From a virus: a stretch of DNA of 22,809 nucleotides. The notes below the pieces were generated by a model. The model had not been told where the DNA came from. It saw only the letters and a list, made by a program, of their open reading frames with translations, and did not search any database. Shown here one piece after another: positions 1 through 6,682 of this stretch (position 1 is the stretch's first letter; each line of letters starts with the position of its first letter). Where the stretch lies: positions 1 through 22,809 of IMG/VR virus record IMGVR_UViG_3300014962_000045. The stretch is one strand, 5' to 3'. Position numbers and translations under genes: made by a program.

Positions 1-74
1 TAGGCTACAAAGTGCGGGTGCTTCATTAACTCAATGTGGCATCTTTCAATGCGTTGTTCTGCGGTTAGTGCCAT
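1..74 (-). CDS. Partial CDS, N-terminus only; possible metallopeptidase/VWA-type partner of the MoxR ATPase
   Basis: Leftward gene cut by the window edge; only the first 24 codons are visible (begins MALTAEQRIERC, then HIELMKHPHFVA). The start is well supported: AAAAGG, then the GTTTAAAC box at 75-82, then ATG. The TAA stop of the preceding gene lies inside the same box, so the two are probably translationally coupled. The N-terminus (RIERCHIxLMKHP) resembles, from memory, the start of phage-encoded COG3864-like predicted metallopeptidases that often sit beside MoxR ATPases, and such an ATPase is encoded at 652-1731. The assignment rests on about 20 residues and on context, so it is tentative. 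That a gene starts here is much surer than what it encodes. Confidence 0.55.
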   Translation of the reverse strand, partial: MALTAEQRIERCHIELMKHPHFVA

Positions 75-76
75 GT

Positions 77-253
77 TTAAACCTTTTCTATATCATATAC
101 TTCAATTTCAGATTCGCTATTGTTTTCCAATACATCGAATTCCGACATTATCATTCGTTCAATATCTTCCATATCATAATTTTCTGAATCATCTACTTCA
201 ATCATAATGGTTTGATATGTTCTTTGAACCACAATACCCTTATATGTTGTCAT
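77..253 (-). CDS. Small acidic protein of unknown function (58 aa)
   Basis: I chose the ATG at 253 (MTTYKGIVV) because GGAGG lies just upstream, within the end of the preceding gene; an upstream GTG two codons earlier is less likely. The product has a short beta-like N-terminal half (KGIVVQRTYQTIMIEVDD) and an acidic C-terminus (ENNSESEIEVYDIEKV). No family is recognised. The stop is the TAA of GTT TAA AC, which is the GTTTAAAC junction box preceding the next gene at 74. It belongs to the leftward operon of tiny genes. Confidence 0.7.
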   Translation of the reverse strand: MTTYKGIVVQRTYQTIMIEVDDSENYDMEDIERMIMSEFDVLENNSESEIEVYDIEKV

Positions 254-255
254 GT

Positions 256-444
256 TCACACCTCCACAACTCTAATTCTATCGCCCTCAATCACTACTTT
301 GGCTTTACCCTCGCCAATTAGTGTTAAGCCCATTTGTTGCATGAATACCGCCATTTTTAACTTCGTGGCGATGTGTTTAAACACAATGGCTAGGACTGTG
401 GCAAGCATAGCCCATGCCAATAAAAACATTTCACTCAATTCCAT
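256..444 (-). CDS. Small single-pass membrane protein of unknown function (62 aa)
   Basis: The start at 444 (MELSEMFLL) is favoured because GAGG lies 6 bases upstream; it overlaps the end of the preceding gene by 14 bases. Residues 6-22 (MFLLAWAMLATVLAIVF) form one hydrophobic segment, followed by a basic stretch (KHIATKLK) and a short beta-like tail rich in Val/Ile. This suggests an inner-membrane anchor with a small cytoplasmic domain. Function is unknown; a holin-like or superinfection role cannot be told from sequence. A GTTTAAAC copy at 375-382 lies inside the gene, read as Val-Phe-Lys-His, within a perfect 14-base palindrome TGTGTTTAAACACA (372-385). Confidence 0.65.
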   Translation of the reverse strand: MELSEMFLLAWAMLATVLAIVFKHIATKLKMAVFMQQMGLTLIGEGKAKVVIEGDRIRVVEV

Positions 445-646
445 AATATTCCTCATAAGTTTTGTATGGTTTACGCACCTCGCCAAAAATATAAAACAAG
501 GGATTTGCTTCGGCTACCACTTCTCTCTTTTCAGAGAGTGTGGTCGCTTGTGTAATCCGATGTTGCATGGATTTTTGGTATGCTTCCTCAATCTGCTTCG
601 CTCTGCGTGTGCGATTGTGGTGCATGGATAATGGGTTGCGGTTCAT
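431..646 (-). CDS. Small basic protein of unknown function (71 aa)
   Basis: I placed the start at the ATG at 646 (MNRNPLSMHH), five bases after the TAA of the MoxR ATPase gene; that TAA lies in the GTTTAAAC box at 650-657. A longer reading would invade the ATPase gene. The N-terminal half is His/Arg-rich (HHNRTRRAKQIEEAYQK) and the C-terminal half is Tyr/Glu-rich (KPYKTYEEYYGIE). It looks helical and soluble. No family recognised. The Shine-Dalgarno is weak (AGAG), so expression may depend on translation of the upstream ATPase gene. Confidence 0.6.
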   Translation of the reverse strand: MNRNPLSMHHNRTRRAKQIEEAYQKSMQHRITQATTLSEKREVVAEANPLFYIFGEVRKPYKTYEEYYGIE

Positions 647-651
647 AGCGT

Positions 652-1731
652 TTAAACACTCTGTGCGAATAGGTAGTTGTTTGCGGTAGCCCATTTGATA
701 AACCCTTGTGATGTGCCAACTGTTGTCTTTTTACTTGTTCGCATTACCGATGTAGCAAAAAGTCCCTGTGCTTCTTTGGACAATCGTTCCATGTATTGAA
801 CCCACTTGTTGATATTGTCCTTTTCTACTTGTTGAATAGCTGAATATACAAGCATACAAACCGCACTAGCCGAATCAGGCACTTTGGTTTTGGTTGGCTC
901 TTTAATGATTTGTTCCCATGTTGGCAACTCATCTGTAAGTTGAATAATAGAGAGCATATCGTAGGTGGCTCGGTTGCCAATCGTGCCTTTAAGTGCGTGT
1001 GCCATAACTTCTATTCCTAATGGCTTAGACTTTTTAATAATATCACTCGCTCTGTTTAAACTGCGTGGTGTGCAAAATGCGGGTCTTGGTGTGCGTGGGT
1101 CATAGATGTATTCATTGTCCGATGCGTTGGAATAGTCCTCGAATGAAGCAAGCATCTGTGGAAATTGTTTTACAGTCATTAAAACTTCGGGGCTAATCTC
1201 ATTGTCCAATGCCCATTCAATCCACTCATCGCTTGATGGTTTACGCACCTTGACTACGCTAATGCGGTTTCTAGCGTGTGGGGGTAAGTTGTCCCCGATT
1301 GCTTCATTGGCTAGATTGGTTGTAGCGAACACAATAGAACCCTGTGGTAGGCTATATGTGCCTAGTTTGCGTTCTAGCATCAATCGCAAGCAAGCGTTCA
1401 TAACTGCTTTTGATGCCTTGCCAATCTCATCAAGCATTAAAACAATGGGCTTATCGTGGTGAAAGCCAAATTCCTCATTAGGAATAAAACTGCAAACTTC
1501 GGTGTCGTTTAAACTGCGTATCTTAGGGACTAGGAAATCGCCTACATCTTTGGTAGTCATATCGCCATAGCAATAGTGGTAGGAATCGCCTAGTCGTTGC
1601 TTAATGATGGAAAGAATTGAAGATTTGCCTATCCCCATCTCACCTTGTGCTAATACTGTTGTGGTATCCCCAACTGCGAGAATTAGGTTTGCGGTATCTG
1701 CAAGGGATAGCGATTTGTATAAGTCAGTCAT
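652..1731 (-). CDS. MoxR-type AAA+ ATPase
   Basis: A 359-residue AAA+ ATPase. Walker A is GEMGIGKS at residues 30-37, Walker B is VLMLDE at 97-102, a sensor-1-like ATTN is at 136-139, and arginine-finger candidates follow in HARNRIS (152-158). The layout fits MoxR-family ATPases, which usually act as chaperone-like partners of VWA-domain or metal-dependent peptidase proteins and remodel protein complexes using ATP. The truncated gene at 1-74 may be such a partner. AAAGG about 9 bases before the ATG supports the start. The C-terminal third (from about residue 260) is divergent and helical. The stop TAA lies in a GTTTAAAC box (650-657). Two more copies occur inside the gene (1054-1061 and 1507-1514), both read as Ser-Leu-Asn. 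The phage-specific role is unknown. Confidence 0.85.
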   Translation of the reverse strand: MTDLYKSLSLADTANLILAVGDTTTVLAQGEMGIGKSSILSIIKQRLGDSYHYCYGDMTTKDVGDFLVPKIRSLNDTEVCSFIPNEEFGFHHDKPIVLMLDEIGKASKAVMNACLRLMLERKLGTYSLPQGSIVFATTNLANEAIGDNLPPHARNRISVVKVRKPSSDEWIEWALDNEISPEVLMTVKQFPQMLASFEDYSNASDNEYIYDPRTPRPAFCTPRSLNRASDIIKKSKPLGIEVMAHALKGTIGNRATYDMLSIIQLTDELPTWEQIIKEPTKTKVPDSASAVCMLVYSAIQQVEKDNINKWVQYMERLSKEAQGLFATSVMRTSKKTTVGTSQGFIKWATANNYLFAQSV

Positions 1732-1750
1732 TTTTGTTGCCTTTCGTTGG

Positions 1751-1963
1751 TTAATAATTGTAAATACTCTCTAAAATACTACTTACTGCGGGGTCTATTT
1801 TGGTAAGACTTTCAGGTTTGACCCATTCCCTAAAAACTTCGTTTTCGTATATTTTGGATTGCCCCTCTATTAGCAATCTTCCCGCCTTGACTGCCCCATG
1901 TATGCGGACATACTGACCCCGCAACATAGCCCAATCTGTGTCTAATGCTTCGCTAATTAACAT
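1751..1963 (-). CDS. Small protein of unknown function (70 aa)
   Basis: The ATG at 1963 (MLISEALDTDW) is preferred; an in-frame TTG further upstream would add nine hydrophobic residues that are already coded in another frame by the preceding gene. The start overlaps the stop of that gene (AGT TAT GTT AAT TAG against ATG TTA ATT AGC), implying coupling. The product has no membrane segment and a plausible beta region (GQYVRIHGAVKAGRLLIEGQSKIYENEVF). No family is recognised. Confidence 0.6.
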   Translation of the reverse strand: MLISEALDTDWAMLRGQYVRIHGAVKAGRLLIEGQSKIYENEVFREWVKPESLTKIDPAVSSILESIYNY

Positions 1964-2051
1964 AACTAGGAATATATAGGTCAGGTGCAAAACAATATAT
2001 CAGGAATAACCCTATAAGTAATAAAGTGCATAAAAAGTCGTCTTTGGTCAT
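1953..2051 (-). CDS. Very small membrane peptide (32 aa), unknown
   Basis: A 32-residue ORF (MTKDDFLCTLLLIGLF, then LIYCFAPDLYIPSYVN). It starts three bases after a GTTTAAAC box (2055-2062) that also holds the stop of the preceding gene, with GGAGT in front. Residues 6-22 form one membrane-spanning segment. It was found by reading across the operon gap: the stretch is otherwise unoccupied, has an SD and is tightly packed with both neighbours. Function unknown. Confidence 0.5.
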   Translation of the reverse strand: MTKDDFLCTLLLIGLFLIYCFAPDLYIPSYVN

Positions 2052-2056
2052 GGTGT

Positions 2057-2197
2057 TTAAACACTCCTTAAATGTTTGATATTAACTATTGTGGTGGTGT
2101 GGGTGTCATCAAAGCGAATCGTTGCCCATTCGCCATTGATTTGTTCGATTGTGGCGGGGTCAAAACCGCACCATAAAACCTTATCGCCTACGCTCAT
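2057..2197 (-). CDS. Small protein of unknown function (46 aa)
   Basis: A 46-residue ORF beginning MSVGDKVLWCGFDPATIEQ and ending IKHLRSV. Its ATG overlaps the stop of the 23-residue membrane peptide (ATGA), typical of translational coupling. The sequence resembles a small SH3-like or KOW-like beta barrel (VGDKVLWCGFDPATIEQINGE), but this is an impression only. The stop TAA lies in the GTTTAAAC box at 2055-2062, and GGAGT just before the stop serves as SD for the next gene. Confidence 0.6.
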   Translation of the reverse strand: MSVGDKVLWCGFDPATIEQINGEWATIRFDDTHTTTIVNIKHLRSV

Positions 2198-2265
2198 AGT
2201 GTTGTCCCCCATAAAATAATGGCGATTAAAACAAGGGCTAGAATAAGGGCTTTTAAGTGTGTCAT
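2194..2265 (-). CDS. Tiny membrane peptide (23 aa), unknown
   Basis: A 23-codon ORF (MTHLKALILALVLIAIILWG, then TTL) that is essentially one transmembrane helix with a basic N-terminus. It has a strong start context: GGGGAGC, GTTTAAAC (2266-2273), ATG. It ends by a 4-base ATGA overlap with the next gene. The start signal and tight fit argue that it is translated; it could be a regulatory membrane peptide or merely a coupling leader. Confidence 0.5.
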   Translation of the reverse strand: MTHLKALILALVLIAIILWGTTL

Positions 2266-2267
2266 GT

Positions 2268-2426
2268 TTAAACGCTCCCCTGTGGATTTGTTTCGGTTGA
2301 ATAATGCCCTTTGATGTAATCGCCTAGAATATTGGTCAATCTATCCGAATCTAAATATGACCACCCATCTTGGTCTATATACCCTAATAAATCCTCAAGG
2401 GCTTTAAATTCTTCGTATGTCATCAT
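2268..2426 (-). CDS. Small acidic protein of unknown function (52 aa)
   Basis: The start is at 2426 (MMTYEEFKALEDLLG), directly after the GTTTAAAC box 2427-2434 and GGGAGC; the second ATG at 2423 is an alternative. The product is helical, acidic and aromatic (YIDQDGWSYLDSDRL). The stop TAA lies in the next GTTTAAAC box (2266-2273). No family is recognised. Confidence 0.65.
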   Translation of the reverse strand: MMTYEEFKALEDLLGYIDQDGWSYLDSDRLTNILGDYIKGHYSTETNPQGSV

Positions 2427-2439
2427 GTTTAAACGCTCC

Positions 2440-2616
2440 CTATTCAAAGTGCAAACCATAATTGGCTAATTCTTTAATCGCCAACTTATCCCCCATAAGT
2501 GCGGACTGTATGATTTTCCGCACCCTGTGGACTTGGTTGTCCCCTATCCAGTTTGCTAGGTGATTGACTGCCACCCCCTGTGGTATTGGTCTATTGTTCA
2601 GATAAAATTGGGTCAT
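2440..2616 (-). CDS. Small protein of unknown function (58 aa)
   Basis: The start at 2616 (MTQFYLNNRPIPQGVA) follows GGAGG and the TAA of the preceding gene by two bases. The product ends with a helical stretch (VRKIIQSALMGDKLAIKELANYG). Unlike most neighbours it ends in TAG, with GGGAGC and a GTTTAAAC box immediately after. A small helix-turn-helix-like fold is imaginable but not supported by a clear motif. Confidence 0.65.
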   Translation of the reverse strand: MTQFYLNNRPIPQGVAVNHLANWIGDNQVHRVRKIIQSALMGDKLAIKELANYGLHFE

Positions 2617-2617
2617 G

Positions 2618-2785
2618 TTAAAAACCTCCATCATTGGTGTCGATAATGTCTTGCTTCATTTGTTCTACTTCATACTCACCATTTGCCAATTCGTAAAGTA
2701 TCTCAATAATCCCACTTCTAAGAGTATCGCTACCCACCCAATAATCTACCATTGCCATTGTAATTTTTGGTTTGTTGTCGCTCAT
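2618..2785 (-). CDS. Small acidic protein of unknown function (55 aa)
   Basis: The start at 2785 (MSDNKPKITMAMVDYW) is chosen for GGAGG plus the GTTTAAAC box (2789-2796) ending three bases before it. The product is mostly helical and acidic (LYELANGEYEVEQMKQDIID). Its last codons GGT TTT TAA supply the region just before the next ATG. No family is recognised. Confidence 0.65.
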   Translation of the reverse strand: MSDNKPKITMAMVDYWVGSDTLRSGIIEILYELANGEYEVEQMKQDIIDTNDGGF

Positions 2786-2790
2786 GGTGT

Positions 2791-2958
2791 TTAAACCTCC
2801 TCTATCTCTATTTCGGAACAATTCTCATTTATGAATTCGGGGCTTTCGTTGCGGAAAATCTCCCTAGCATCATATTTGTCAAACCCGCTATAAGTCATAA
2901 AGTATTCCTCCGCATCGTCAAAGGTGGCGGGGCTTCCCTCAATAAAATATGTTCTCAT
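2791..2958 (-). CDS. Small acidic protein of unknown function (55 aa)
   Basis: A 55-residue ORF: begins MRTYFIEGSPATFDDAEEYF and ends NCSEIEIEEV. The start follows GGGAGT-GTTTAAAC directly (box 2959-2966), and the stop TAA lies in the next box (2789-2796), so it is framed on both sides by the same junction element. It is strongly acidic with aromatic residues in the first half. No family recognised. Confidence 0.65.
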   Translation of the reverse strand: MRTYFIEGSPATFDDAEEYFMTYSGFDKYDAREIFRNESPEFINENCSEIEIEEV

Positions 2959-2960
2959 GT

Positions 2961-3206
2961 TTAAACACTCCCTAGTAGATTGTCAAAATAGTCTTGTGGT
3001 TGTTCGGTTGCCTTTACACCATCTAGCCATTTGTTTATATGGCGGGTTGTGGTCATAGACCACTTTTTAGCGGTGCGGTAATAAGTATGTGTTGCCTTAT
3101 CGTAGCTTGCTACGGGTGTGGCATAGCTGAATAAAACCAAATAATCATTGGTGTCTATCAGGTTCATATTTGAAGCGATTGGTTTAAGTTTAAGTGTGTT
3201 TGTCAT
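2961..3206 (-). CDS. Small protein of unknown function (81 aa)
   Basis: I chose the ATG at 3206 (MTNTLKLKPIASNMN), which lies just beyond the end of the preceding gene and has AAAAGG about 11 bases upstream; a longer reading would overlap that gene. The product appears to be alpha/beta, with a basic centre (YRTAKKWSMTTTRHINKWLDG). The stop is inside the GTTTAAAC box 2959-2966 (GTT TAA AC ATG). The 3207-3220 leader shares the GGTGTTG(x)TCCTTTT pattern, read on the plus strand, with the leaders at 3410 and 3744. Confidence 0.65.
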   Translation of the reverse strand: MTNTLKLKPIASNMNLIDTNDYLVLFSYATPVASYDKATHTYYRTAKKWSMTTTRHINKWLDGVKATEQPQDYFDNLLGSV

Positions 3207-3220
3207 GGTGTTGTGTCCTT

Positions 3221-3409
3221 TTAAACTGATTCGATTAAAAATTGATTTATAGCATTGTCCCAAAATGCCTGTTCAATTCGTTCTAACATCTTGCTACCCA
3301 TTGGCAAATCTGTCAAATATTCCACAAACAATAGCTTGTCCTGTGTTTGTGCGTATTCCCTCAAATTGTCGGGTGTCATATATTCGGCTAGGTATTGGCT
3401 TAATCTCAT
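3221..3409 (-). CDS. Small protein of unknown function (62 aa)
   Basis: The start at 3409 (MRLSQYLAEYMTPDNL) follows a copy of a repeated hairpin-plus-SD leader (3410-3461) carrying AAAGG. The product is helical throughout, amphipathic and slightly acidic (RIEQAFWDNAINQFLIESV). No family is recognised. It lies in the leftward operon between two other small unknown genes. Confidence 0.65.
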   Translation of the reverse strand: MRLSQYLAEYMTPDNLREYAQTQDKLLFVEYLTDLPMGSKMLERIEQAFWDNAINQFLIESV

Positions 3410-3461
3410 GGTGTTGTTTTCCTTTGTTGGTTGTGTGGCGGGGTTGCCCCCGCCTGTTGGT
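3410..3461 (-). promoter_or_regulatory. Repeated intergenic hairpin-plus-SD leader, copy 2
   Basis: Intergenic leader with a perfect 7-bp GC stem (GGCGGGG 3437-3443, CCCCGCC 3448-3454) and a shared AAAGGAAA ribosome-binding stretch. It is nearly identical to 3744-3803 except that it lacks eight bases (TTTAAACA). There is no U-tract after the stem on the transcribed strand, so it is not a classical terminator; a transcript-stability or translational element is more likely. Confidence 0.6.
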
Positions 3462-3743
3462 TTAATCGTATCGTGTCCCGCACAATTCGCACATCAGGGG
3501 GTTATAGGTGTGGTCGGCAACTGTGCACTCAGGCTCACAATCTAGCACAATCATAGCCCACCCCACAATGTCCCCCGCTTTGTTGCGGAGTCTTAATTCT
3601 GATACATCAACTGATTCAATAGCATCTTTAATCGCTTTGTAGCTAGTTGCCCGCTTTACTTGCCATTCTTCGCTATCCCAAACTGATATTGTCAGGTCTT
3701 TGGCTAGTGCATTGTTGATTAGGTCTAAATATGCTTTTCTCAT
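3462..3743 (-). CDS. Conserved-looking phage protein with Cys pairs (93 aa), unknown
   Basis: A 93-residue protein starting MRKAYLDLINNALAKDL with AAAGG about 11 bases upstream. It has an alpha/beta N-terminal region (TISVWDSEEWQVKRATSYKA). The C-terminal region holds four Cys (DCEPEC at about 69-73 and MCELC at about 84-87) plus a His in between, compatible with a small zinc site. I have the impression of similar proteins in environmental phages but know no function. It is flanked on both sides by the repeated hairpin leader. Confidence 0.7.
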   Translation of the reverse strand: MRKAYLDLINNALAKDLTISVWDSEEWQVKRATSYKAIKDAIESVDVSELRLRNKAGDIVGWAMIVLDCEPECTVADHTYNPLMCELCGTRYD

Positions 3744-3803
3744 GGTGTTGGTTTCCTTTGTTGGTTGTGTTTAAACATGGCGGGGACTTGCCCCGCCTGT
3801 TGG
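3744..3803 (-). promoter_or_regulatory. Repeated intergenic hairpin-plus-SD leader, copy 1 (with GTTTAAAC)
   Basis: Stem GGCGGGG (3779-3785) and CCCCGCC (3791-3797), then a GTTTAAAC box (3769-3776), then AAAGGAAAC before the ATG at 3743. Apart from a few substitutions it equals the 3410-3461 leader plus an eight-base TTTAAACA insertion. It sits directly after the SprT-like gene's stop. Confidence 0.6.
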
Positions 3804-4391
3804 TTATTCTTCGCTAGATTGGGCAAACATATCACCAAGATAGTCCGCACAATCGGGGTTAGGGCATCGTGGCAATGCCACTTCAATCCACTTGCGGGAG
3901 GTGTAAACCTGATAATCGCAACTAGAACATACGCACTTAATTTGTCGTGTTGTTTGCTTTTTAATGCCCGATTGGGTCAAAGGTGCATGGGGATATTGAC
4001 CCGCTTCGGCTACCCATTCGCCAATCATGGCTTTTAATTCAGCATTGGCACTAGCTGACCGCATCTGTCCCTCAAGCCCTACGGCTAAGGCACATTGTTT
4101 AAACACCTTGCCATGCCCCGCTTGGTTGCCAACTGTCGCATGGACTAACTCATGGATTAAAATGTCAATAACTTCTACGCTATCAGCTACCTTTGGCGAA
4201 ATGAAGATTTCAAAATGGTTATCTTCACTTGCTACGCTTGACCAACATTCGCCAATATGTTTCCTTGTGCTAGTTAGTGAGCATGACATACGCACATTTT
4301 GGGGGATTGTATAACCCGCTTTGGCGAAATGGTTGCGGATATATGTATCTGTAATGTAGTTTAAATATGCTTCTCTGTTTAATGTTTGCAT
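3804..4391 (-). CDS. SprT-like zinc metalloprotease
   Basis: A 195-residue protein with the SprT/SPRTN-type catalytic motif HELVH (His80, Glu81, His84) followed by a third ligand candidate in AGHGKVF (His93). A C-terminal zinc-ribbon-like region follows: Cys153/155/158 and Cys176/181, the last pair in CPNPDC. This order (HExxH core, then treble-clef or ribbon) matches the SprT family, whose eukaryotic member SPRTN cleaves DNA-protein crosslinks; bacterial and phage roles are poorly defined. The start at 4391 has AAAAGGA about 8 bases upstream. It is the first gene of the leftward operon, so it may be expressed early. A GTTTAAAC copy (4097-4104) lies inside it, coding Val-Phe-Lys just after the active site. 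Substrate in the phage cycle is unknown. Confidence 0.85.
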   Translation of the reverse strand: MQTLNREAYLNYITDTYIRNHFAKAGYTIPQNVRMSCSLTSTRKHIGECWSSVASEDNHFEIFISPKVADSVEVIDILIHELVHATVGNQAGHGKVFKQCALAVGLEGQMRSASANAELKAMIGEWVAEAGQYPHAPLTQSGIKKQTTRQIKCVCSSCDYQVYTSRKWIEVALPRCPNPDCADYLGDMFAQSSEE

Positions 4392-4410
4392 TGTTCTATT
4401 CCTTTTCGGC

Positions 4411-4439
4411 TAGTTATCATGGCTTGATTGCCATAACTA
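4411..4439. repeat. Inverted repeat in the leader of the leftward operon
   Basis: TAGTTAT (4411-4417) and GGC (4421-4423) pair with GCC (4430-4432) and ATAACTA (4433-4439). This is a 10-bp stem with a 3-base bulge and a 6-base loop, 20 bases ahead of the SprT-like start codon. It could be an operator or an mRNA leader structure. Confidence 0.45.
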
Positions 4440-4515
4440 AAACTATACGCTCATTTTGGGCTTGTGCTTACCTTGCCACCTATCGCTTTCCCTAATAGGG
4501 TAAACCCTAATATCC

Positions 4516-4574
4516 GCAAACCCGTATATCTATTGGGTTTGCATGGTGTTGCCCCTTGTATCTATTGGGTTTGC
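4516..4574. repeat. Direct repeat and inverted repeat cluster (TATCTATTGGGTTTGC)
   Basis: A 16-base perfect direct repeat TATCTATTGGGTTTGC at 4527-4542 and 4559-4574. The spacing is 32 bases, about three helical turns. GCAAACCC (4516-4523) is an inverted match to the end of both copies. A short CCCTAATAGGG inverted repeat lies nearby at 4490-4500. It looks like a binding-site pair. Confidence 0.5.
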
Positions 4575-4748
4575 TGTCGGTTTCTGCCCGCTAACCCGCA
4601 TGGTTGATGGATTCCTAGCGATTGCATGGTGTCCCTTGTGCTAGTATCAACTCACCCCAAAATGGCTAAAAAGCCCCTTAAAACCCCTGTAAATCGATTG
4701 TCATTTTAGCGGGTAGTTTCTTTGGATTTATTCGGGGTGCGTATTTGA

Positions 4749-5023
4749 TGCGGTGCAATATCTCGCCCTCCAACCCGCTACGCTCTCGCACCCGCATAGC
4801 CACATTGCGTTTAAACGCTTCAATCCCTTTCAGCCATATTGCGGTGCAACATATTGCCTAGCCCCAATGTTGCGGTGCACCATATTGCCGAGTTGCCATG
4901 TTGCGGTGCAACAATGTTGCAATGCACCATATTGCCGAGTTGCCATGTTGCGGTGCAGCATTTCACATTGTGAGATTCAATTTCATAATGCGGAATAGGG
5001 GGTAAAAAGCATATTGCGATGCA
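4749..5023. repeat. Iteron-like TTGCRRTGCA cluster
   Basis: The motif (T)TGCRRTGCA recurs at about 4749, 4840, 4870, 4901, 4918, 4948 and 5014. A perfect 35-base direct repeat occupies 4876-4910 and 4923-4957. The core is partly palindromic (TTGC ... GCAA or TGCA). A GTTTAAAC copy inside a 12-base palindrome GCGTTTAAACGC lies at 4807-4818. The cluster is typical of iterons or a multi-site operator. Confidence 0.6.
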
Positions 5024-5124
5024 CCATTTTGCAGACCCCCGTGGCCGCGGTCCGAGGCTCAGCCCATAAGCAAGCTCGTTAAATCCCGCTCACCTAAAAT
5101 TTTTTTATTTTTTTGTAAAATTTT

Positions 5125-5418: not shown

Positions 5419-5727
5419 ATGAGCGAATACGTGTACCAAATCCAAGGTGCGTTAGAAAATGCGCAGGGCCAGTTAAAAGGTCTGCGAGTTTTGGTATGTG
5501 ACGCTTATAACATGGACATTGTGGATGCGCCGATAGAAATACTGGATAACGAAACAGCTAGGTTCTTGCAATTTAGGCTCAAAGTATCCAAACAAGCGGT
5601 CAACATCCAAAACTTGCCATTCTCTGTCCAAAATAAAATACGCATGCCGTTAGGGCGATGGCTGGACCAATGGGTCCGAGAAAATTTTCATGGCGATACT
5701 AGCAAACGAAAAAGTATTAACACTTGA
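5419..5727 (+). CDS. Unknown protein at the start of the packaging module (102 aa)
   Basis: A 102-residue protein (MSEYVYQIQGALENAQGQLK) with an alternating beta-like middle (GLRVLVCDAYNMDIVDAP) and a helical basic C-terminus (RWLDQWVRENFHGDTSKRK). It is the first gene after the control region and directly follows a GCATTAGTA element. Its last 38 bases overlap the intein-like ORF in another frame. Position suggests a packaging-related role, such as a small-terminase substitute, but no terS signature is seen and I do not assign one. Confidence 0.65.
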   Translation: MSEYVYQIQGALENAQGQLKGLRVLVCDAYNMDIVDAPIEILDNETARFLQFRLKVSKQAVNIQNLPFSVQNKIRMPLGRWLDQWVRENFHGDTSKRKSINT

Positions 5728-6682
5728 CTACTGGAAACCAGCCCGGCTGTTAAAGGTGGGCGACTACGTATTTGACCGAACTGGCAATCTGGTTAGGGTT
5801 AAACTGGTACAAGAATACCGAGCGCAGCGTTGCTACCAGGTGCGGTTCTCTGACAACCTGACTATGTCTGGTGATGAGAACCTTGGATTCCCCTCCGAGA
5901 ACCAAGTGCACCGCTCAAGGATCCGCGAATACAAGCAAGTTAGGCAATTTAAGCGCAAACTTAGGCCCATCAAGGTAAAACAACTGCTTGAGTTACCGTT
6001 AAAGTTTCGGCCAGACGAGTACACCTACTCAGTTCAGACAACTCCCCCACTGGAATTACCCCACCAAACCCTACCGGTCCCGCCGTTTGTGTTTGGCTTT
6101 TGGTTTTTTAACCGCAAAACCAACAAAAGAATGACGCCACCCAAGGGATTTTCCCAGGATGTGCACGAAGAATTTAAAAACGCTGGTTACAAACTGACAG
6201 AGCATTGGTTATCCGAATCAGGTGAGCGAGAATTTTCCACCGCCCCCACCATTGAGTCGCATCTGTTACCAAACATTCCGCATAAAATCCCAAACAACTA
6301 CTTGTTGGCGGACAAAGACCAGCGTATTGACCTGCTGCGTGGTATAATTTATTCAAAACCGCAGCAATACAACGTTAAAACAGATAAATTTAGATTTTCT
6401 AGCAAGAATTTGTCAGTAATCCAGCAGGTTCAGTTCTTGGCTGAGTCACTGGGTCACAAAACAAACATCTTGCACAACGAGCCCAACCAGACTTACACGC
6501 TTTTCTTTAAAAGCCGGCTAAAACTTATATCAAACCAGGTATCTCCTCCGTTAAAAATTGTATACGGTAGGAGACATATACACGAAATTGAGGAAATACC
6601 ACCGCAATTGTGCGTCCACGTTGAGACCACAGCGCCAGACAATACCCTGTTAGTAGGGGAAGGATTCATTTCTACATGTTAA
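5690..6682 (+). CDS. Intein-like (Hint plus degenerate LAGLIDADG) protein, splicing and nuclease residues missing
   Basis: A 330-residue ORF with the architecture of a full intein. The N-terminal Hint block is ANEKVLTLDYW then LLKVGDYVFDRTGN (residues 5-32). The first endonuclease-like block is LPVPPFVFGFWFFN (128-141), the second IPNNYLLADKDQRIDLLRGI (200-219) followed by a RFSSKNLSVIQQVQFLAESLG stretch (235-255). The C-terminal block is VETTAPDNTLLVGEGFIST (311-329). Key residues appear lost: the position of the splicing nucleophile is Ala, the block B His is absent (SGDEN, 60-64), acidic residues expected at the ends of the two LAGLIDADG motifs are replaced (WFFN, YSKP), and the ORF stops where His-Asn would stand. 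It overlaps terL by 7 bases (ATGTTAA). Hint identity is fairly sure; its function is unknown. The start at 5690 is the only ATG after an in-frame stop at 5651; its SD is weak. Confidence 0.75.
   Translation: MAILANEKVLTLDYWKPARLLKVGDYVFDRTGNLVRVKLVQEYRAQRCYQVRFSDNLTMSGDENLGFPSENQVHRSRIREYKQVRQFKRKLRPIKVKQLLELPLKFRPDEYTYSVQTTPPLELPHQTLPVPPFVFGFWFFNRKTNKRMTPPKGFSQDVHEEFKNAGYKLTEHWLSESGEREFSTAPTIESHLLPNIPHKIPNNYLLADKDQRIDLLRGIIYSKPQQYNVKTDKFRFSSKNLSVIQQVQFLAESLGHKTNILHNEPNQTYTLFFKSRLKLISNQVSPPLKIVYGRRHIHEIEEIPPQLCVHVETTAPDNTLLVGEGFISTC

Follow-up and report, generated by a model that had tools for sequence, protein, structure and literature searches.

The window, a stretch of 22,809 nt (positions 1 to 22,809) of the IMG/VR virus record IMGVR_UViG_3300014962_000045, carries near its left end a leftward early operon dotted with exact copies of an 8-bp palindrome, GTTTAAAC, here called the box. 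The clearest early genes of this phage encode a MoxR-like ATPase and an SprT-like protein, and the relation of the latter to the box is the subject of this report (Table 1). The portal protein is distantly related to those of Caulobacter, Roseobacter and Pelagibacter phages. A megablast search of the window against phage records gave no match.

Thirteen boxes lie between positions 75 and 4816, all where a sequence-only reading of the window had placed them; dinucleotide shuffling predicts 0.71, and none of 100 shuffles reaches 13. That reading had seen none in the other 18 kb, which holds, and extends to the further 2.75 kb of the 25,560-base record; the reversed pattern has a count of 0 in the record. 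Spacing of the boxes is more even than chance (coefficient of variation, CV, 0.50; P 0.011). At six junctions (75, 650, 2055, 2266, 2789 and 2959) the box encloses the upstream TAA and the ATG follows within 0-3 nt, and four boxes lie inside genes, reading V-F-K (375, 4097) or S-L-N (1054, 1507), both as previously described; codon shuffling gives only 0.68 in-gene boxes (shuffle maximum 3). The claim that selection acts on DNA or RNA and not on protein is upheld for DNA.

Table 1. Boxes, SprT-like gene and operon in the window.
Feature	Position	Strand	Basis
Leftward early operon bearing the box array	72..4391	-	gene calls
GTTTAAAC box at a gene junction; encloses the TAA of the upstream gene and touches the following ATG	75..82		sequence
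GTTTAAAC box within gene 256-444 (V-F-K)	375..382		sequence
GTTTAAAC box, junction, contains stop of ATPase gene	650..657		sequence
GTTTAAAC box within ATPase gene (S-L-N)	1054..1061		sequence
GTTTAAAC box within ATPase gene (S-L-N)	1507..1514		sequence
GTTTAAAC box, junction	2055..2062		sequence
GTTTAAAC box, junction	2266..2273		sequence
GTTTAAAC box next to ATG of gene 2268-2426	2427..2434		sequence
GTTTAAAC box, junction	2789..2796		sequence
GTTTAAAC box, junction	2959..2966		sequence
GTTTAAAC box, leader of gene 3462-3743, right behind GC-rich inverted repeat	3769..3776		sequence
SprT-like zinc-metalloprotease-fold protein, 195 aa, proposed box reader	3804..4391	-	Pfam, AlphaFold2/Foldseek, box association
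Codons 144-155, encoding the conserved KKQTTRQIKCVC; the box follows its presence and variants	3927..3962	-	alignment/covariation
GTTTAAAC box within SprT-like gene, codons 96-99 (V-F-K)	4097..4104		sequence
Codons of HELVH active-site motif, residues 80-84	4140..4154	-	alignment
GTTTAAAC box, control region between leftward and rightward operons	4809..4816		sequence

Beyond the window, the box is restricted to elements that carry an SprT-like gene. A scan of viral contigs for a Shine-Dalgarno (SD) sequence followed by box and ATG returned more than 119 stretches from many phages (GC content 26 to 61%), many with dense arrays; clustering of their genes picked out the SprT-like gene, present in 55 of the 80 contigs with at least four boxes vs 2 of the 39 with fewer. 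Here and below, contig genes come from a simple home-made caller, expectations from first- or third-order composition, and related contigs are not independent. In the reverse test, independent of the box, loci were selected by the peptide pattern K[KT]Q[STG]TRx[IL]K alone. The 77 new loci obtained hold 609 boxes vs 18 expected; 72 are enriched, and GTTTAAAC is the top 8-mer in 65. The reversed-sequence control at these loci gave 31 vs 42 expected, and portal-selected contigs from the same collection 14 boxes vs 18.3, with none of 74 having three or more. SprT-selected bacterial and plasmid contigs likewise hold 167 boxes vs 5.4 expected, and the gene was found in 70 plasmid records, 41 of them conjugative. 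The pairing spans phages of cyanobacteria, of alpha-, beta- and gammaproteobacteria and of actinobacteria, as well as plasmids, and SprT is the sole gene family common to box-bearing isolates of unrelated phages. No repressor family is common to the box-bearing phages, which share SprT alone; nor is a methyltransferase family among those common to box-bearing elements. The modification site once offered as an option has no support here. In the open-access literature, no description was found of an SprT-box pairing, the box motif, SprT regulators or plasmid SprT; PMC8758107 contains a shared-gene mention only.

Both the presence of the box and its exact form follow residues within the SprT-like protein. 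Twenty isolate phages encode an SprT homologue. The 13 whose homologue has the [KP]KQxTR motif in its C-terminal part all have 4-42 boxes, and the seven with another sequence at that position have at most one each (13/13 vs 0/7, Fisher's exact test ~1e-5, with no correction for relatedness). Actinophages carry a non-palindromic variant, GTTTACAC, on both strands, and half-site variants explain the apparent exceptions, namely GTGTACAC in locus L304 and a Pseudomonas plasmid, and GTTTACAC in contig G036; the three forms GTTTAAAC, GTTTACAC and GTGTACAC therefore define a box family, GTKTAMAC. The residue following the motif is V in 8 of the 9 GTTTACAC lineages, and C or A in 114 of the 125 GTTTAAAC rows.

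The window protein scores 31.3 bits against the Pfam SprT-like family PF10263 (cut-off 25.6). In its AlphaFold2 model (mean confidence, pLDDT, 88) a linker of low confidence, which contains KKQTTR, connects an SprT protease domain to a C-terminal ribbon; the ribbon is folded in the model, and its zinc-binding cysteines C155, C158 and C176 are invariant in an alignment of 49 sequences. The best match of the model in the PDB by Foldseek is human SPRTN (6MDW), with which it shares the order of a protease fold followed by a zinc-binding domain; unlike SPRTN, the proteins of the phages go with a particular 8-bp site, and a number of them are no longer catalytic. In a second structural comparison the ribbon came near MCM zinc ribbons only, with low Z, and an NCBIfam scan of four SprT-like proteins assigned no family. 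PMC7474061 lists gp83 of mycobacteriophage LHTSCC, an SprT-like protein, as bactericidal to mycobacteria that express it, with filamentation.

Across SprT-bearing loci generally, the boxes lie mainly in coding DNA: 341 of 498 (68%) are in genes, 23% are intergenic and 43 (9%) are at starts, against a start background of 3.3%. The in-gene copies far exceed codon shuffling in Pan1 (9 vs 0.02), Dinoroseobacter phage R26L (11 vs 0.06) and Arthrobacter phage Reedo (14 vs 0.38), as they do in Percival, Crosby, G002, G009 and Mica. In actinophages the boxes abut or overlap TTGCG-type promoters (4 of 5 in Reedo, 3 of 5 in Percival). The SprT gene is itself a frequent site: 53 of 61 viral SprT genes contain a box vs 18.6 expected, mostly at V-F-K codons past the active site, and in plasmid loci one box lies within the gene in nearly every case; the window box at 4097-4104 has this same placement. 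Of the 13 box-bearing isolates, 10 also have a box in the 160 nt upstream of SprT (measured in Percival from the conserved Met); in Escherichia phage ECO1230-10, which has 5 boxes, one is at +1 of the SprT promoter. As a general rule, autoregulation by way of a box just ahead of SprT was rejected, as it fails in environmental loci.

Given these patterns, the SprT-like protein and the box are probably the protein and the site of a previously undescribed system that controls mobile DNA. The protein is very likely the reader of the box; with less assurance, we favor the reading that its C-terminal zinc ribbon binds GTTTAAAC and that it is a regulator working from distributed sites. The proposed reader consists of a Spartan-type zinc-protease fold, then a basic linker (K-K-Q-x-T-R), then the zinc ribbon, and linker and ribbon would together read the eight bases, at sites placed at regular intervals across the controlled part of the element (about 250-350 bp in the early region of the window, about 3-5 kb genome-wide in several other phages). 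Where a box overlaps a promoter, the bound protein would act as at an operator; where it lies in a gene, SprT included, it would form a roadblock to RNA polymerase. We infer direct binding, with reduced transcription as its outcome. Among the functions once listed for the box, a regulator-binding site is in this way the one preferred, and a termination-reinitiation signal is disfavored by the predominance of boxes in genes.

Several observations weigh against this regulator. Environmental phages do not as a rule have a box near the SprT promoter (7 of 70 vs 5.3 expected), plasmid loci never do (0 of 36), and most SprT proteins retain catalytic residues that a plain repressor does not need. Covariation of the box with the SprT motif can come from linkage; the lineages with V153 are few and partly related, and two V rows bear GTTTAAAC. 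Crosby has the asymmetric box alone, on both strands, and a simple symmetric dimer is therefore not established. Boxes are scarce or lacking at a few loci that do have the motif (L326, L337 and G033), the last being a 30.5-kb fragment with no box of any form. Evenness across coding DNA, finally, is also expected from a DNA-organizing function.

The retained catalytic residues bear on a second reading, in which SprT is a sequence-guided protease. Docked at evenly placed boxes, it would cleave proteins bound to the DNA of its own element or close to it (host silencers, stalled polymerase, and crosslinked or defense proteins), as human SPRTN does with no sequence specificity; catalytically dead forms would be later derivatives. 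We regard this reading as unlikely. The zinc site (H80, E81, H84 and H93, that is HExxH plus a third His) is invariant in the 49-sequence alignment, the catalytic residues are intact in 101 of 115 distinct homologues from the box-rich set, SPRTN is the closest structure, and even spacing would suit regular coverage. Against it, 14 of the 115 were scored as lacking at least one of these residues (one or two perhaps alignment or frame artefacts; the loss is put at 11-14 of 115), with clear cases reading AMLCH, SQLCR/AQLCR or HELCR, and several such lineages retain dense arrays; box density is not lower with a dead active site (1.09 vs 0.86 boxes/kb), and the link to the box therefore needs no proteolysis. 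Moreover, the promoter overlap in actinophages favors transcription control, and no substrate is known. The conservation of the active site still gives a site-directed protease some weight. In its fullest and still doubtful form, an 8-bp address repeated at regular intervals would recruit a Spartan-type protease to the DNA of the phage or conjugative plasmid that encodes it, destroying the host proteins bound there (silencers, polymerase or defense factors), with some lineages decayed to a pure DNA-bound roadblock.

A role in DNA organization, partition or anchoring, with SprT at spaced sites shaping or segregating the element in the manner of ParB or KorB, seems improbable. SprT adjoins parA and rep genes on sphingomonad plasmids, and the boxes are evenly spread, largely ignoring gene borders; however, the box-bearing phages analyzed here have no identified ParA partner, the sites are limited to the early region in the window's clade, and the promoter overlap in actinophages again speaks for another function. 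On plasmid RK2, about a dozen scattered palindromes, the O_B sites, are read by one plasmid protein, KorB, with long-range effects. The box resembles this arrangement in its scattered palindromic sites and single element-encoded reader (here a putative one), but KorB belongs to the ParB family, and the box partner has no ParB or KorB domain, being SprT-like only.

A different reader, supplied by the host or by another phage gene, with SprT only linked to it or a downstream partner, is quite improbable. Most candidate DNA-binding genes in box phages are uncharacterized, which leaves room for such a reader, but the SprT pairing holds across diverse host groups and plasmids, every other family reaches 6 of 10 box-bearing isolates at most (DNA polymerase, which comes next, is present in box-less isolates too), and the presence and variant of the box follow residues inside SprT. 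Two specific partners were tried and dropped. An 82-residue protein with the sequence TTRHINKWLDG, found in 29 of 29 box-bearing relatives, was abandoned once wider sampling pointed to SprT. A phage sigma factor unique to the box clade, acting as reader in the style of T4 gp55, was given up because isolates without sigma have the box and the sites lie too near starts for promoters. The sigma-70-like protein concerned (L132; G009 22433-23005, minus strand) has about 190 residues with regions 1.2, 2 and 3 and without region 4; homologues occur in 22 box-bearing relatives, the gene lying just past the box-rich early region.

The sequence-only reading had taken the box for a modular gene-junction element, a stop-restart or start-associated cassette in mRNA, which is now highly improbable: six cassettes in the window and an ATG within 7 nt of the box, on at least one side, in 277 of 490 copies (57%) in its clade argue for it, but only 9% of boxes are at starts in the wider set, the asymmetric GTTTACAC is found in either orientation to the genes as well as within promoter spacers, and in-gene boxes exceed codon shuffling. 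Junction placement is a feature of this clade, probably for reasons of economy: the SD-ATG spacer is non-coding, and one of the three reading frames through the box contains a stop codon, which makes a junction a cheap place for it.

The pairing gives the SprT-like genes of many phages, annotated 'SprT-like protease' or 'transcription elongation protein SprT' and of unassigned role, a testable one: that of working with a specific 8-bp site found genome-wide. To our knowledge, no member of the Spartan family has so far been shown to read DNA sequence-specifically, so that this protein would be the first, and we know of no sequence preference of SPRTN itself. One protein-site pair connects conjugative plasmids to phages whose hosts are very different, and site variants tracking one residue, dead-protease versions, and motif-less versions without sites provide natural experiments.

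Among known systems, the stoperators of cluster A mycobacteriophages, sites of the L5-type immunity repressor (PMC9283540), are similar in that many copies of one short exact site occur genome-wide, some in promoters and many in transcribed DNA, and in that site variants differ between phage groups along with the reader. They differ in the reader, which is a helix-turn-helix repressor and here would be SprT/Spartan-like; in the site, 13 bp and asymmetric vs 8 bp and palindromic or nearly so; and in placement, stoperators lying in one orientation in short intergenic spaces, whereas the box is mostly in genes, in either orientation, and on plasmids too. The Start-Associated Sequences of cluster K (PMC3203893), to which the box had been compared in idea, are likewise repeats near starts in the non-structural half of genomes that also encode an SprT relative; however, they are 13 bp, asymmetric, nearly all in one orientation and at starts only, and the box is palindromic and mostly in genes.

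Relatives of the window phage were also gathered by a search with the ATPase (46 loci). Twenty-seven are box-rich, with 7-40 copies per 8-21 kb and GTTTAAAC usually the top-enriched 8-mer. Another 18, with ATPases up to 75% identical, hold no box (0 vs 6.1 expected), and relatives with the same early genes can hence lack it, a finding that the sequence-only reading had itself named as refuting a junction element; one remote ATPase match (L050) has two copies. Single-mismatch versions of the box are rare (649 exact vs at most 74, both strands counted). G009 and G002, both long contigs, have their boxes densely in the promoter-proximal early region and rarely among the rightward late genes, and early-region boxes are evenly spaced even within long genes (CV 0.34-0.6, P 0.04 to <1e-4).

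The box-less relatives have long palindromes of their own, specific to each clade, in 3-10 copies in the same early region and often 9-40 nt ahead of starts: AATCCCTATSATAGGGATT in L031, L034, L035 and G011; ATTCGGGACWGTCCCGAAT in L033, L037, L040 and G015; TTGTTATCANNTGATAACAA in L041; TTATTAACANNTGTTAATAA in L042 and L043; and CTAACAWTGTTAG in L047. In G011 and G015 a ribbon-helix-helix-like gene beside the control region encodes a candidate reader of these palindromes. A single regulator of drifting specificity, common to box-bearing and box-less kin, was dropped, since the latter carry their own palindromes and ribbon-helix-helix genes and therefore represent a separate system.

Elsewhere in the window, a GGCGGGG...CCCCGCC hairpin (3777-3803) is of a kind that adjoins boxes in intergenic leaders of many relatives (such as L007, L020, L023 and L026). 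The divergent control region (4820-5030) contains tandem imperfect repeats of the TTGCGGTGCACCATATTGCC type, origin- or regulator-like. A separate gene ahead of that for the terminase large subunit (5690-6682) matches part of intein-sized terminase profiles, and its product resembles a Hint/intein-type domain ('VLTLDYWKPARLLKVGDYVF'). The most enriched 8-mer of the window is TACAGCGG (24 on both strands vs 1.2 expected), GGTTACAG is also high (20 vs 1.0), and locus L063, related to the window phage, has very many copies of CTGTAACCAG; these are probably repeats within structural genes.

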